Source: Nitrospinota bacterium
GTDB taxonomy: Bacteria > Nitrospinota_A > UBA7883 > JACRGQ01
Length of the DNA: 38,615 bases
Direction of reading: 5' to 3'
Assembly: GCA_016200345.1 (NCBI GenBank)
Contig: JACQEX010000003.1
Coordinates: 1-38,615, forward strand
Position 1 is the first letter of the stretch; every line of letters begins with the position of its first letter. Both the position numbers and the translations under genes were made by a program. Of the stretch, positions 24,309 to 38,184 are shown in pieces. The notes under the pieces are model-generated. The model ran no database searches. It was not told the DNA's origin and saw nothing but the letters and a program-made list of their open reading frames with translations.

Positions 24309-24352
24309 ATGCAAAAAGCAAATTAAATAATTAATTATTTTTGGAGGAAGTG

Positions 24353-25501
24353 ATGAGAAGGTACATCGAATGGGTCATAAAACACCGGGCGGGAATCATC
24401 GTGTTGACCGCGCTAATAACGCTCGGGCTTGTCTTCCAGCTTAAAAGCCTCTCCATAGTGTTGGATCCGGCAAAGCTTCTTCCGCAGTCGCACGAACTAG
24501 TGGCGGTCGGCAACAGGGTGGAGGAGCTCTTCGGCAACAAATTCACCGTCGTGGTGGGAATCCACGCAAAAAACGGAACCGCGCTAACCCCGCGCGTGCT
24601 CGAAAAGGCGCAGAGAATAACCTCCGCGATTTTAAAATCCAACGGCGCGATTAAGTCAAACGTCGTCAGCGTTTCGTCGCGAAAGGCAAAAAGCATCTCC
24701 ACGAACGACGGCGGGCTGGAGGTGCGGCAGTTGATGGCGTCCGTCCCGACCACGGAGAAGGGGCTGGCCGATTTGAAAAAGGCGCTCGACTCCAACCCCG
24801 TATATTCGAACCTGATAATTTCCAAGGATTACTCGACGCTCGCAATTGTCGCGGAATACAAAAACCTAGGCAGTTTTAGGGCCATAACCGGGCAGGTGGA
24901 GGCCATCATCGCAAAAGAGGCCGACGACGCGGTGGAAATCACGCTGGACGGCCAGCCGGTTTTCACGGCGATGATAGAAAAGTTTTCCGAGCGGATGGGA
25001 TTTTTCTTTCCGCTGGCCCTGTTGGTGATATCCCTGCTCCTTTACTGGGCCTTTAGGAGCGTGCAGGCGCTGTTTCTCCCGCTTGTGACCGCGTTATTGG
25101 CGGTTATTTGGAGCCTCGGGATAATGGGTCTTTTCAAGGTTCCGCTAGACCCGTTCAACGCCACCACGCCCATTCTCATCCTCGCCCTCTCCGCCGGACA
25201 CGCGGTGCAGATAATGAAGCGGTACTACGAGGAGTACCACCGCATCCGAAAAACATTCCCGACCATCGAGCCTCGATCCGCAAACAGACTTGCCGTGGTG
25301 GAATCCGTGACAAGCGTCGCCCCGGTGATGATGTCGGCAGGCCTAATCGCCGCGACCGGATTTTTCTCCCTTTTGGTTTTCGACATCAAGACCATCCAGA
25401 CGTTCGGCGTGTTCACCGGCTCCGGCATTTTAAGCGCGATGTTGCTCGAGATGTCGTTCATCCCCGCCCTTCGCTCCATGCTAAAGGCGCCCGGGAAAAA
25501 A
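24353..25501 (+). CDS. MMPL/RND-family exporter, N-terminal half (frame disrupted at A6, 25496-25501)
   Basis: TM segment, periplasmic domain, MMPL TM cluster ending FIPALRSMLKAPGKK; GGAGGAAG before ATG. Confidence 0.85.
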
Positions 25502-25508
25502 GAGCGTC

Positions 25509-27488
25509 GTGGACTCCGTGGTGTCGGCCTGCGCCAACGCGGTTATCAACAACCGTCCCCGCGTCTTCGCCGTGTCGCTCGTCCTGCTGGCGGTGTTTGC
25601 CGTCGGCGGCGCGCGCGTAAAGGTGGACAACGCGACGAAGGGCGGTTTTTACGGGAACCTCAAGGAGCTGAGGGACGACGACAAATACAACGGCTGGATG
25701 GCCGGCGCCAACCCCATGTACCTTCTCATAGAGGGAAAGGCGGAGGACGCGATGAAGGAGCCGGCGGTTTTAAAGGGGATGGAGTCCATCCAAAGGGAGA
25801 TTGAAAAAGACCCGATGGTCGGAAAAACCGTCTCGCTCGCCGACTACATAAAGCGGATAAACATGGCGATGAACGGCGACTCGAAGGAGTTCGACAAAAT
25901 ACCGGACGACAAAAACTTGATTGCCCAGTACCTTTTTCTGTATTCTACCTCGGGCGAACCGGGGGACTTTGACACGGTGGTGGACAACGGCTACAAAAAC
26001 GCAAGCGTCACGATTTTTTTAAAAACCGACTCCAGCGCGTTCACGGACGCGTTCGTCCAAAAAGTCCGCCGTCTCGGGGCGGACAGGTTAGGCCCGTACG
26101 CCACCATGAGGATCGGCGGCGGGGCCTCGTCCGGAACGGCCTTAAACGAGGTTTTAGTGCATGAAAAAATGTTGAACATCGCCCAAATAATGGCGGTGGT
26201 GTTCATCATCTCCTCCTTGGTGTTTCGCTCGGCGCTGGCCGGGGGGCTGGTGCTTGTTCCGCTGGTGGTCTCGGTCGCGGCGAATTTCGCCGTCATGGGA
26301 TTTTTTGGAATCCCGATGGAAATCGCCACCTCCACCATCTCCGCCATGGCGGTCGGCCTTGGCGCCGACTACGCGATTTATCTGGCGTTTAGAATGCGCG
26401 AGGAGCTAAGAAAAGGCGGGGACGAAAAACTGGCCGTCATGCGGGCGTTCTCCACCGCCGGAAAGGCCGACCTGCTTGTGGCGGCCTCCGTCGGGGCCGG
26501 GTACTTCATCCTGGTCTTTTCCTACGGATTCAACATCCACTTCTGGCTCGGCCTCCTTATAAGCATAGCGATGGTCACCAGCGCGTTCGCCTCCATAACC
26601 ATCTTCCCCGCGCTCATTCTCGCCCTGAGGCCCAAGTTTATTTTTGAGGGGAACGGATCAAAGGAGGACGACGACGCGACGGAGCCATCTGCGGCGGCGG
26701 CAGTTCTTGCGATAATCGCCGGCCTCGCGCTGACAGCTTCTACGGCAGGCGCCCGCGAGCTTTCGGCGGTCGAAATAATGAAGGCCAACTTTTCCGTGCA
26801 AAAGGTGGCGGATTCCGAGTCCGACGCGACCTTTAGGCTAGTGACCCAGACGGGCGAGGAGAGGATAAGAAAAACCCACGGCGTCGCCAAGCTGATAAAG
26901 GGGACCACCGACAACATGCAGTTGGTCCGCTTCGTCGCGCCGCCGGACATCAAGGGAACCACCACGCTCTCCATCGAGCATTCCGACAAGGACGACGACA
27001 TCTGGATTTACCTCCCCGCGCTGAAAAAAACCCGCAGGCTCGTCTCCAGCAACAAAAAGGACAGCTTCGTCGGCACCGATTTTTCCTACGGCGACGTGAT
27101 AGGCCACCGGGTCGAGGATTGGAACCACAAGCTGTTGCGTTCCGAAACTGTGGACGGCGCGGACTGCTACGTGCTGGAATCCACCCCGGCCCGGCCGTCG
27201 GTCGGCGAGGACTCGGGGTATTCAAAACGGGTCGGCTGGATACGAAAGGACGATTTCGTCGCGATTAAGGGGGAGATGTACGGCGAGGACGGAACCCTGC
27301 TAAAGCAGTTTTTCGCCGGCGACATAAAGGAGACCGACGCGGCGAACAAAAAATTCCAGGCGATGCGGATTGAGTCGCGCAACGTCCAGACCGGGCACAA
27401 GACCGTCATCACCTTCGAGAACTTCCGCGCGAAGGTGGGGATAAAGGACGAGATGTTCACCGCAAGATATCTGGAAAAAGATTTTTAA
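25509..27488 (+). CDS. MMPL/RND exporter C-terminal half fused in frame to an outer-membrane lipoprotein-sorting (LolA-like) domain
   Basis: INNRPRVFAVSLVLLAVFAVGGARVKVDN; second MMPL TM cluster; then hydrophobic AAAAVLAIIAGLALTASTAGARELSA and a LolA-like region (DDIWIYLPALKKTRRLVSSNKKDSFVGTDFSYGDV). Confidence 0.82.
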   Translation: MDSVVSACANAVINNRPRVFAVSLVLLAVFAVGGARVKVDNATKGGFYGNLKELRDDDKYNGWMAGANPMYLLIEGKAEDAMKEPAVLKGMESIQREIEKDPMVGKTVSLADYIKRINMAMNGDSKEFDKIPDDKNLIAQYLFLYSTSGEPGDFDTVVDNGYKNASVTIFLKTDSSAFTDAFVQKVRRLGADRLGPYATMRIGGGASSGTALNEVLVHEKMLNIAQIMAVVFIISSLVFRSALAGGLVLVPLVVSVAANFAVMGFFGIPMEIATSTISAMAVGLGADYAIYLAFRMREELRKGGDEKLAVMRAFSTAGKADLLVAASVGAGYFILVFSYGFNIHFWLGLLISIAMVTSAFASITIFPALILALRPKFIFEGNGSKEDDDATEPSAAAAVLAIIAGLALTASTAGARELSAVEIMKANFSVQKVADSESDATFRLVTQTGEERIRKTHGVAKLIKGTTDNMQLVRFVAPPDIKGTTTLSIEHSDKDDDIWIYLPALKKTRRLVSSNKKDSFVGTDFSYGDVIGHRVEDWNHKLLRSETVDGADCYVLESTPARPSVGEDSGYSKRVGWIRKDDFVAIKGEMYGEDGTLLKQFFAGDIKETDAANKKFQAMRIESRNVQTGHKTVITFENFRAKVGIKDEMFTARYLEKDF

Positions 27489-35285: not shown

Positions 35286-36176
35286 CTATTTCAAGAGATC
35301 GTGGAGGGGGATTTTTATGTCGCCGAGTTTTCCGGAAAAATTTGCCGCGCCAATCTTTACCACTCCGCCGACGCACGCGACCCTTATACCGACGGCCATC
35401 GCGGCCTTCGCCGCCTCAAGCGAAACGGCGTCCATCACAATCTCAAACACAGCCTCCGTCCCCTTCGGCAGTTTTCGTCCCGGGTTTTTGGAGGCCGGAA
35501 TGGACGGGCAGTAATCCTCCTGCGTGGACGCGGAGAGAAAAGGGTATTTCGAGCCGACCCTGCTCGCCCCGCCAACGACCCCGCCCGGAAACGGCAGTAT
35601 CAGCCCCGGCATGGAAGCAATCGCCTCCGCTGACTTTTCGGCGGACTTCAGCCCAGATTTTTGGCTCGACGCAAAAATCCAAAAGTTCGCGCCGCCAACC
35701 CCGCGCCCGATCTTGACGCTTTTCTCGGCGATAAAATCGCCGGATGTAAGCGGTATCAAAACGCTGTCGCGCCCGTGGAGTTTTTCCTCCCTTTGGAAGC
35801 CGTTGCCAAAAAAACCGAGCTTCGATCCAAGCTCAAAATCGTCACCCGTTTCAAGCCCGTTGAACACGCTCACAGTCGGCGTCGGCAATAGAACCTGCCC
35901 AGCCCTCTTTATAAGCTCCTTCTCCAACTTCTCGCGCGTCCTCGAAAAAAAAAGCGCGGCACTTCCCGGCCTTCCGTCCGGGGTGGCGAACCCTGGCGCC
36001 CTCGCCTCGATACCGGCCTCGCACCCGCACCCGATTATGGAGGTGGCGCACCCGACCGCAAGATTGGCCGACTCGTAAGCCCATTTGCCACTCCGTCCGG
36101 TTATTACCAGACGCGCGAAGAACATCTCGAACGCCTCGGCGTGCGTGTTTTCTATCTCGATTCCGTTAATTTCCAT
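35286..36176 (-). CDS. fhcD: Formylmethanofuran:tetrahydromethanopterin formyltransferase (Ftr/FhcD)
   Basis: MEINGIEIENTHAEAFEMFFARLVITG; ATSIIGCGCEAGIE; PDGRPG; GRGVGGANFWIFA; LPFPGGVVGGASRVGSKYPFLSASTQEDYCPS; FSGKLGDIKIPLHDLL. Confidence 0.92.
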   Translation of the reverse strand: MEINGIEIENTHAEAFEMFFARLVITGRSGKWAYESANLAVGCATSIIGCGCEAGIEARAPGFATPDGRPGSAALFFSRTREKLEKELIKRAGQVLLPTPTVSVFNGLETGDDFELGSKLGFFGNGFQREEKLHGRDSVLIPLTSGDFIAEKSVKIGRGVGGANFWIFASSQKSGLKSAEKSAEAIASMPGLILPFPGGVVGGASRVGSKYPFLSASTQEDYCPSIPASKNPGRKLPKGTEAVFEIVMDAVSLEAAKAAMAVGIRVACVGGVVKIGAANFSGKLGDIKIPLHDLLK

Positions 36177-37363
36177 TTTCCCCCGCCGGTTATCACGTGT
36201 CGCGCCTGCGCGAACATTTTTTCAAAATCCCTGTCCTCCTCGTATATTACCGCGCCCCCTCCGTTTCGCCCAATCACAAGCGACGGGGCGTGCCGCGTTA
36301 CAATGGCAATCTCGTAAAGCGAGAACTCGCGCCCGCTGTTTTTTAACGCCGGGGAGGAAGCGGAAAGCGTCTCCAAAAACTTCCCGCGCAGACCGGAGTC
36401 CATAAGGCAGGCGATTATAAAGGGAATCCCCAAAATATCGCCGCCCGACGGATAGTCAATCGAAAGGGAGACCGCGCTTAAGTTTTTGGACGACAGAAGA
36501 AACTCCATCCCGTTTATCCAAAACTCGGCGTTAAGGATATTGGACTTTTGAAACAAATAGGGGGATGCGGAAAATACGCTCTTATCATCGCCGAAAATGC
36601 CGCCGCCTCCGGCCAGCATGACTCTTTCGGACAATCCCTCGTCGGCGGTAAATGTCAGCGCGGGGCCGAACACAATCGGCCCGCAGTCCACCGTCACGTT
36701 TGGATATTCCGAAATCATTTCCGCCGCCTTTGCGCCTGCGACGTTTCCTTTTTCAAACGCGTAATATGAAATATGAGAGAGATGGCACCTTCTCCCGGCC
36801 AGCCTTTTTAAAAACTGTTCGAGATAATTTAGGGAGTCGCCTTTCGCAAGATGCGGAAGGTGGACGTGGTGCGCCACACCGTCGTCCGGTTGTTTAAAAA
36901 ATTCCTCCACCCCTTTTTCGCATACGAATTTGGCCGGGCGGTCAACCCCGACAACCTCGCCAAGAGGAAGGATTGAGCAGGCGATGTTTTGTTTTTCGCA
37001 CTCATCCTGCGCTGATTCAACCTCGTTCGGCGAAAGCCCGGCCTCGACAAAATATGTGCATCCCATCGAAAGATATTTACGCACCGTCTCCCCCAAGTCC
37101 GCATAACCGGCCAACTCTTCAAAACCAGAAAAACGGGCGAGCCTGCTCACGCCTATTGGATGGGAATGGACGTCAATCGCCCCCGCCATCACAACGCAAC
37201 CGCTTGCGTCCAAAGCCCCTTCGTGCGGGATTGGTTTTCCCGTGGCGGGATTAAAAATCTCGCCGCCAACAATCTCCACGTCGCGCACTTCTCCGTTGAC
37301 GTTGCTCGACGGGTCGTAAACCCTCCCCCCGGCGATTATCACCTTCCCGCCCTGACCGGTCAT
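36152..37363 (-). CDS. fhcA: FhcA/FwdA-like formylmethanofuran dehydrogenase subunit A, short form (403 aa)
   Basis: GGRVYDPSSNVNGEVRDVEI, GAIDVHSHPIG, HHVHLPHLAKGDSLNYLEQFL, CHLSHISYYAF, VTVDCGPIVFGPALTFTAD, LNAEFWINGMEFLL, SIDYPSGGDILGIPFIIACLMD. Confidence 0.85.
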   Translation of the reverse strand: MTGQGGKVIIAGGRVYDPSSNVNGEVRDVEIVGGEIFNPATGKPIPHEGALDASGCVVMAGAIDVHSHPIGVSRLARFSGFEELAGYADLGETVRKYLSMGCTYFVEAGLSPNEVESAQDECEKQNIACSILPLGEVVGVDRPAKFVCEKGVEEFFKQPDDGVAHHVHLPHLAKGDSLNYLEQFLKRLAGRRCHLSHISYYAFEKGNVAGAKAAEMISEYPNVTVDCGPIVFGPALTFTADEGLSERVMLAGGGGIFGDDKSVFSASPYLFQKSNILNAEFWINGMEFLLSSKNLSAVSLSIDYPSGGDILGIPFIIACLMDSGLRGKFLETLSASSPALKNSGREFSLYEIAIVTRHAPSLVIGRNGGGAVIYEEDRDFEKMFAQARHVITGGGKWKLTESR

Positions 37364-38184
37364 TGCGCGGTGCCGTACTGCGGCGAGTAGTCAAACGTCG
37401 CCACCACGTGAATCCGCTCCTTGTTCAAACCTTTGGGGAAACCGGCAAACGGGGCCGATTTCATCACGGCCACCAATGCGGACGAATCCAACGACACGTC
37501 GCCGGCGGAGGTTATGACCTTCGCCTCCAGCAACTCGCCGTTTTTACCGATGGTCATGCGCACAACCGTCCGGCCCCCCAGCCCCTTTTTAATCGCCTCC
37601 TCCGGGTAATTCCACGCTGACGCGACCGCCCCCCGGACGGCGACAAAATACTCCACGTACTCGAACTTTCTGGTGTTGAGTGGGATTATTATCTCGGTTT
37701 CGGTCTCCAACTCCCCGCCGGGGTTCGTTGCGGCAAACTTGTCAATGTCCTCGCCGGACATGGCCGGGGAACGGGCGGCCACGTTGCTCGCCGTCGGAGT
37801 CGGGGATTCCTTGATGAAACTGGGGACGGCCGTTTCCGCCCCTATTATTTGGCTTGATTTGGTCATGCGCCCCGATTTTGAGCGCTCCGTCCCCTTCTTG
37901 GTGAAACTTGCCGATGAAAACGACAGTGCCTCGGCCTTCTCCTTTTCTTTGACCTCCGACCTCGCCTCGGATTTTGGCAAATCTAGCATTTTCCCGTATT
38001 CCAAATCCTTCTCCTCGACGACCGGCTCGGACTTTACGGCGGTCTCGTCCATGAATGTGACCTTTATTATCCCGACGTCCGGCAGTGAGGGGATGGCGGA
38101 GATGTTGAGCGACATGGTCGCGACCACGGCGTGCAGAAGGAGGGAGAACACGATGAAACGCCCGATTTTCCATTGTCCCGCCAT
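37360..38184 (-). CDS. TonB-family energy transducer
   Basis: N-terminal TM anchor, charged linker, TonB C-terminal domain (VASAWNYPEEAIKKGLGGRTVVRMTIGKNGELLEAKVITSAGDVSLDSSALVAVMKSAPFAGFP). Confidence 0.85.
   Translation of the reverse strand: MAGQWKIGRFIVFSLLLHAVVATMSLNISAIPSLPDVGIIKVTFMDETAVKSEPVVEEKDLEYGKMLDLPKSEARSEVKEKEKAEALSFSSASFTKKGTERSKSGRMTKSSQIIGAETAVPSFIKESPTPTASNVAARSPAMSGEDIDKFAATNPGGELETETEIIIPLNTRKFEYVEYFVAVRGAVASAWNYPEEAIKKGLGGRTVVRMTIGKNGELLEAKVITSAGDVSLDSSALVAVMKSAPFAGFPKGLNKERIHVVATFDYSPQYGTAQ

Follow-up and report, generated by a model that had tools for sequence, protein, structure and literature searches.

A Predicted Methanofuran-Dependent FhcA-FhcD Pair without Recognizable H4MPT Genes in a Family of Uncultured Nitrospinota

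The tonB-fhcA-fhcD Locus

The window analyzed here, a 38,615-nucleotide stretch of contig JACQEX010000003.1 (assembly GCA_016200345.1), belongs to a Nitrospinota genome of 2.24 Mb that is 93% complete. Three consecutive minus-strand genes lie toward its end (Table 1): a tonB-family gene, first of the triad, whose product has an N-terminal hydrophobic segment and a C-terminal TonB domain; a short fhcA; and fhcD (ftr). The open reading frames were found where a preliminary description of this DNA had placed them, with overlaps of 4 nucleotides (tonB/fhcA) and 25 nucleotides (fhcA/fhcD). The locus was compared across 24 related genomes, comprising 11 from the window's own family (f1; seven genera, the window's genome included), seven from a sister family of the same class (f4), three from two further families (f2 and f5), and three without Ftr.

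Table 1. Genes of the triad and predicted active-site residues of the short FhcA
Feature	Positions	Strand	Evidence
tonB-family gene, 274 aa	37360-38184	minus	PF03544, 2.7e-13; TIGR01352, 5.2e-13
Short fhcA, 403 aa; amidohydrolase subunit, predicted formyl-methanofuran hydrolase	36152-37363	minus	TIGR03121, 9.7e-40
fhcD/ftr, 296 aa; formyltransferase, both lobes	35286-36176	minus	PF01913 and PF02741, full length; PRK02114; 1ftr
HxH metal motif (H66, H68)	37160-37168	minus	Invariant (n = 11); end of barrel strand 1 (predicted strand E62-67)
K145, candidate carboxylated lysine	36929-36931	minus	Invariant (n = 11); aligned with canonical lysine
HVH (H166, H168) and HLSH (H194, H197)	36773-36868	minus	All four invariant; next two barrel strands (E165-168, E193-195)
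D303, catalytic aspartate of SIDYPSGG (DHPNGG in canonical FhcA)	36455-36457	minus	Invariant; aligned with D of TTDHPNGG

Two other features of the window were noted. Upstream of tonB, at the contig end (38290-38480), there is an imperfect direct repeat (CCTTTATCAAGT...GCTTTATCTCTCTGAC). On the plus strand, two overlapping open reading frames in different frames (24341-27488) resemble a single RND/MMPL-type exporter interrupted by a frameshift at ~25.5 kb (translations judged by eye). Its second portion runs on into a LolA-like domain; the break is either a sequencing error or the mark of a pseudogene.

A Shortened FhcA with a Predicted Intact Metal Site

The 403-residue protein, earlier described as FhcA-like, matches the FwdA/FhcA family one_C_dehyd_A (TIGR03121) at 136 bits, below the 392.75-bit equivalog cut-off, and has no Pfam match at 0.001; it is a divergent FhcA, shorter than the full-length form of ~548 residues. 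Similarity to Methylorubrum FhcA (6s6y_A) is evident by phmmer (1.2e-27). An AlphaFold model built with the family alignment as input (pLDDT 89.6, pTM 0.92) has as its best Foldseek match the same Methylorubrum protein (6s6y; E 3.9e-27, TMq 0.78); the top eight matches are all FhcA or FwdA, and the next amidohydrolases appear only at 1.6e-12. Grouping with another amidohydrolase family, a possibility raised in the preliminary description, is ruled out by this gap.

The metal ligands of FhcA are four histidines, one aspartate, and one carboxylysine (PMC11656701). H66, H68, K145, H166, H168, H194, H197, and D303 are invariant in all 11 f1 FhcAs and column-aligned with canonical FhcA, which bears out the earlier view that the HxH, HVH, HLSH, and SIDYPSGG regions are retained. 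The companion claim, that the segment carrying the carboxylated lysine is missing, was wrong: in a joint alignment with f2, f4, f5, and proteobacterial FhcA, K145 occupies the lysine column of the motif IK(L/V)(V/I)N(P/A)GG (some relatives read GALGVKLFGEAG against GALGIKLVNPGG), and in the AlphaFold model it lies at the predicted strand preceding the HxH strand. Alignment and predicted fold together rule out loss of the lysine. The real deletions flank it, with ~26 residues absent before K145 and ~30 after it, in addition to the C-terminal tail. The short FhcA thus appears to possess the full ligand set, carboxylation of the lysine being a prediction, and on alignment and model it is a genuine, shortened FhcA with a predicted intact metal site.

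The short form is characteristic of f1, with lengths of 386 to 420 residues. The longer FhcAs of f2 and f5, from genomes without FhcB or FhcC, keep the internal segments and have lost most of the C-terminal tail; the tail is kept in the single f4 sequence aligned, which comes from a genome bearing both subunits. The missing segments and tail probably docked FhcB and FhcC and would have been lost together with them.

Methanofuran Genes without H4MPT Genes

All 11 f1 genomes encode a short FhcA and one Ftr/FhcD. The absences described here rest on targeted profile searches, by which fhcB and fhcC were found over cut-off in none of the 11 and were not found near the locus; as the preliminary description had indicated, neither occurs beside the pair, nor does either pass its cut-off anywhere in the window's own genome at its 93% completeness. 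A full fhcABCD set elsewhere, with the window's copies decaying, is ruled out by the same searches. Genes for Mch and Fae are likewise absent from all 11 genomes. RFAP synthase, the marker of tetrahydromethanopterin (H4MPT) synthesis, was detected in none of the 11 either by TIGR00144 or by a profile built from f4 relatives (~460 bits in f4 control genomes), and the 14 genomes of f1, f2, and f5 all lack it, including one assembly that is 100% complete in 4 contigs (G011). In the sister family f4, all seven genomes carry fwdC, mch, Ftr, and an RFAP synthase relative, and 6/7 carry fwdB over cut-off, so the searches were able to detect these genes. Every copy of f4 FwdB (G013-G017 and G022; for example, G014:C7:67649-68890) contains one in-frame TGA, probably encoding selenocysteine, and one f4 locus (L117) holds an apparent H4MPT-synthesis cluster.

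Methanofuran synthesis was assessed through two enzymes, MfnB (PF04476), which forms the furan, and MfnF (TIGR03123). MfnB is encoded in 11/11 f1 genomes (in G004 as a fragment at a contig end) and MfnF in 10/11; in the window's genome the MfnF gene is split between the ends of contigs C5 and C40, an assembly break rather than a gene loss. From these genes, the bacteria are predicted users of methanofuran or methylofuran. The three f2 and f5 genomes encode FhcA, FhcD, and MfnF, and no FhcB, FhcC, Mch, or RFAP synthase. MfnB or MfnF is present in all 21 Ftr-bearing genomes and neither in the three without Ftr (G012, G021, and G023). Methanofuran genes track Ftr, not H4MPT, in this set, whose members are related and do not amount to 24 independent tests. 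In most genomes of the class, mfnB adjoins a gene for a fabI-like enoyl-ACP reductase (12 loci, L149-L162).

The genes had been labeled H4MPT-linked. Of the C1 and cofactor genes searched for beyond the locus, those for MfnB and MfnF were recovered, and with mch, fae, and RFAP synthase missing family-wide while methanofuran genes are kept, a H4MPT-linked C1 pathway is not recognizable in f1 and the label is not supported. The pair might still carry out classical formyl-H4MPT hydrolysis if a H4MPT-like pterin were imported or made by unrecognized enzymes. Non-homologous replacements are documented in these cofactor pathways (PMC5020050), and FhcD is still similar to archaeal Ftr; however, the missing Mch leaves nothing found that would make formyl-H4MPT, and RFAP synthase is lacking throughout the three families, even in the complete G011 assembly. 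We regard this explanation as distinctly unlikely.

Selection on fhcA and fhcD

Estimates of dN/dS are 0.14-0.21 for fhcA and 0.10-0.18 for fhcD; both genes are under purifying selection. Retention of the pair in 11/11 genomes without FhcB or FhcC, under such selection, agrees with its earlier characterization as a minimal or divergent formyltransferase/hydrolase module. That the pair is instead a decaying remnant of a lost H4MPT pathway might be suggested by the full pathway in sister family f4 and by the partial clusters of Nitrosococcus, which have been read as recent loss (PMC5020050). Decay is rejected by the invariant active-site residues and the dN/dS values, near 0.1-0.2; the pair is intact in all 11 genomes and seven genera, the methanofuran genes are also retained, and a remnant is extremely improbable.

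Divergence of FhcD

FhcD is full length, as first described: both Ftr lobes (PF01913 and PF02741) are whole, and scores of 330 bits (PRK02114) and 303 bits (TIGR03119, one_C_fhcD) each exceed the respective cut-off. Among PDB entries it is most similar to archaeal Ftr (1ftr, E 3.1e-77). The FhcD tree separates f1, f2, and f5, the families without H4MPT genes, from f4 and Proteobacteria (split support 100/98), and the f1 stem branch measures 0.96 changes per site. More than a dozen substitutions are fixed in f1 at positions otherwise fixed in canonical Ftr, including C43, P98, V139, A163, W166, R206, Q219, and A250. The long stem and the f1-fixed residues fit a switch of substrate with subsequent constraint, a history for which the tree alone is no proof.

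Such a change might have gone further than the loss of H4MPT, the pair forming or removing a formyl group on some other amine or carrier produced by MfnB/MfnF-type enzymes, with the pterin step not central. Besides the long stem and the replacements at conserved Ftr positions, this would accommodate the reshaping of FhcA near its active site, where DHPNGG has been altered to D(Y/F)PSGG in f1. Against it, MfnB and MfnF are both kept with the pair family-wide, and FhcD has both lobes and scores over its equivalog cut-off; we consider it rather unlikely.

Gene Neighborhood and tonB

A neighborhood survey found tonB directly upstream of fhcA in 10/11 f1 genomes, with a 4-nucleotide overlap in five; in one f1 genome tonB is cut by a contig end. 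fhcA and fhcD are adjacent in 9/11; the remaining two genomes have ~0.45 kb and ~1.9 kb between the genes. Most of the remaining neighbors vary between genera, so the triad has been selected or is unusually stable. The placement behind tonB, at first thought unexpected, is thus not a local accident, although a functional link does not follow from it. The G002 copy of tonB (L109, minus strand, ~9.9 kb) has an in-frame stop where its relatives have a conserved tryptophan.

Conserved order and the short overlaps could mean that the TonB-family protein energizes an outer-membrane receptor whose ligand, for example a pterin or furan, is then processed by FhcA and FhcD. Yet the window shows no identified receptor gene, exbB, or exbD next to tonB, the fhcA-fhcD pair of G001 stands without tonB, and co-transcription alone would be sufficient; this role is very doubtful. 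The linkage itself is conserved, and co-expression is the modest reading of it. In G001, a gene named metH from its sequence is divergent from fhcA in place of tonB, and in f5, fhcD is divergent from folB-folK; these neighbors weakly suggest a link to folate.

A Proposed Route from Formyl-Tetrahydrofolate to Formate

We propose that FhcA and FhcD constitute a minimal formyltransferase/hydrolase that depends on methanofuran and no longer on H4MPT, and that most likely drains formyl-tetrahydrofolate (formyl-H4F) to formate; we place even confidence in this reading. With a reduced pterin as donor, FhcD would pass the formyl group to a methanofuran-type carrier, and the short FhcA, as a binuclear-metal amidohydrolase that may associate physically with FhcD, would hydrolyze formyl-methanofuran to formate and so recycle the carrier. 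The reduced pterin is most likely tetrahydrofolate, because no H4MPT route and no Mch were found; activity of Ftr on formyl-H4F is putative. The equilibrium lies strongly against condensation of formate and methanofuran (K'eq 2e-4; PMC11656701), and because in addition no CO2-reducing subunit was found, hydrolysis is the likely direction.

The proposed steps sum to formyl-H4F + H2O -> formate + H4F, a net reaction that is that of PurU reached by another route. PurN-like proteins, which use formyl-H4F, are encoded in most of these genomes. PurU was found in only 2/11 f1 genomes (G001 and G007). The pattern does not cleanly show replacement of PurU by Fhc and is no proof of it, since PurU is missing also from G012, which has no Fhc.

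A broader form of the proposal, to which we give somewhat less than even confidence, is that methanofuran has been uncoupled from methanopterin and joined instead to the C1 metabolism of folate, where FhcAD would work as a two-subunit enzyme without FhcB and FhcC.

Comparison with Known Systems

The closest parallel is the FhcABCD complex of Methylorubrum extorquens (6s6y), which has the same FhcA fold and metal ligands, a two-lobed FhcD, and, as predicted for f1, releases formate via a furan carrier. The f1 system differs in the absence of FhcB and FhcC; in its FhcA of 386-420 rather than ~548 residues, shortened internally at two places and by the C-terminal tail; and in genomes without Mch, Fae, or the H4MPT synthesis marker. 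Archaeal FwdA (5t5i, 8rja, and 7bkb) and Ftr (1ftr, 1m5h, and 1m5s) are homologous to the A subunit and the formyltransferase, f1 FhcA being 19-20% identical to FwdA by fold alignment. In contrast to archaeal formylmethanofuran dehydrogenase, f1 has no FwdB catalytic subunit and no electron-transfer subunits, and its system would therefore not reduce CO2. PurU, with the same proposed net reaction, is an unrelated single enzyme that, unlike FhcAD, needs no furan carrier.

Hakuba Actinobacteria encode FwdDBA-Ftr-FwdC, and methanopterin-synthesis genes were not observed in them; their B subunit has been argued to be potentially active (PMC7325909). They resemble f1 in having Ftr and an A subunit in a bacterium in which methanopterin-synthesis genes were not observed. 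They differ in keeping FwdABCD, whereas f1 has neither B nor C and a shortened A, a pattern that is family-wide. In the open-access literature, whose coverage is incomplete, the Hakuba case was the only one found of Ftr or methanofuran without methanopterin, and the searches turned up no family-wide pair that, like the one in f1, lacks B, C, and H4MPT genes but retains those for methanofuran. A scan of a contig collection by short peptide patterns, which may omit near relatives, returned mainly longer FhcAs from methylotrophic Proteobacteria; a close short form was not among its matches. In its chemistry the f1 pair corresponds to the known Fhc complex; what appears new is the family-wide conservation of a pair that lacks B and C, lacks H4MPT genes, and retains methanofuran genes.

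Methanofuran is usually considered together with tetrahydromethanopterin, as one half of a pair. If our reading is true, the furan half of this C1 cofactor pair can stand alone, which raises the question of whether Ftr works with folate. The f1 pair would also offer a small two-protein system for probing the contribution of the B and C subunits to FhcA function. Taken as a whole, the analysis suggests a previously unrecognized methanofuran-based removal of formyl groups, perhaps from ordinary folate, in an uncultured bacterial family.
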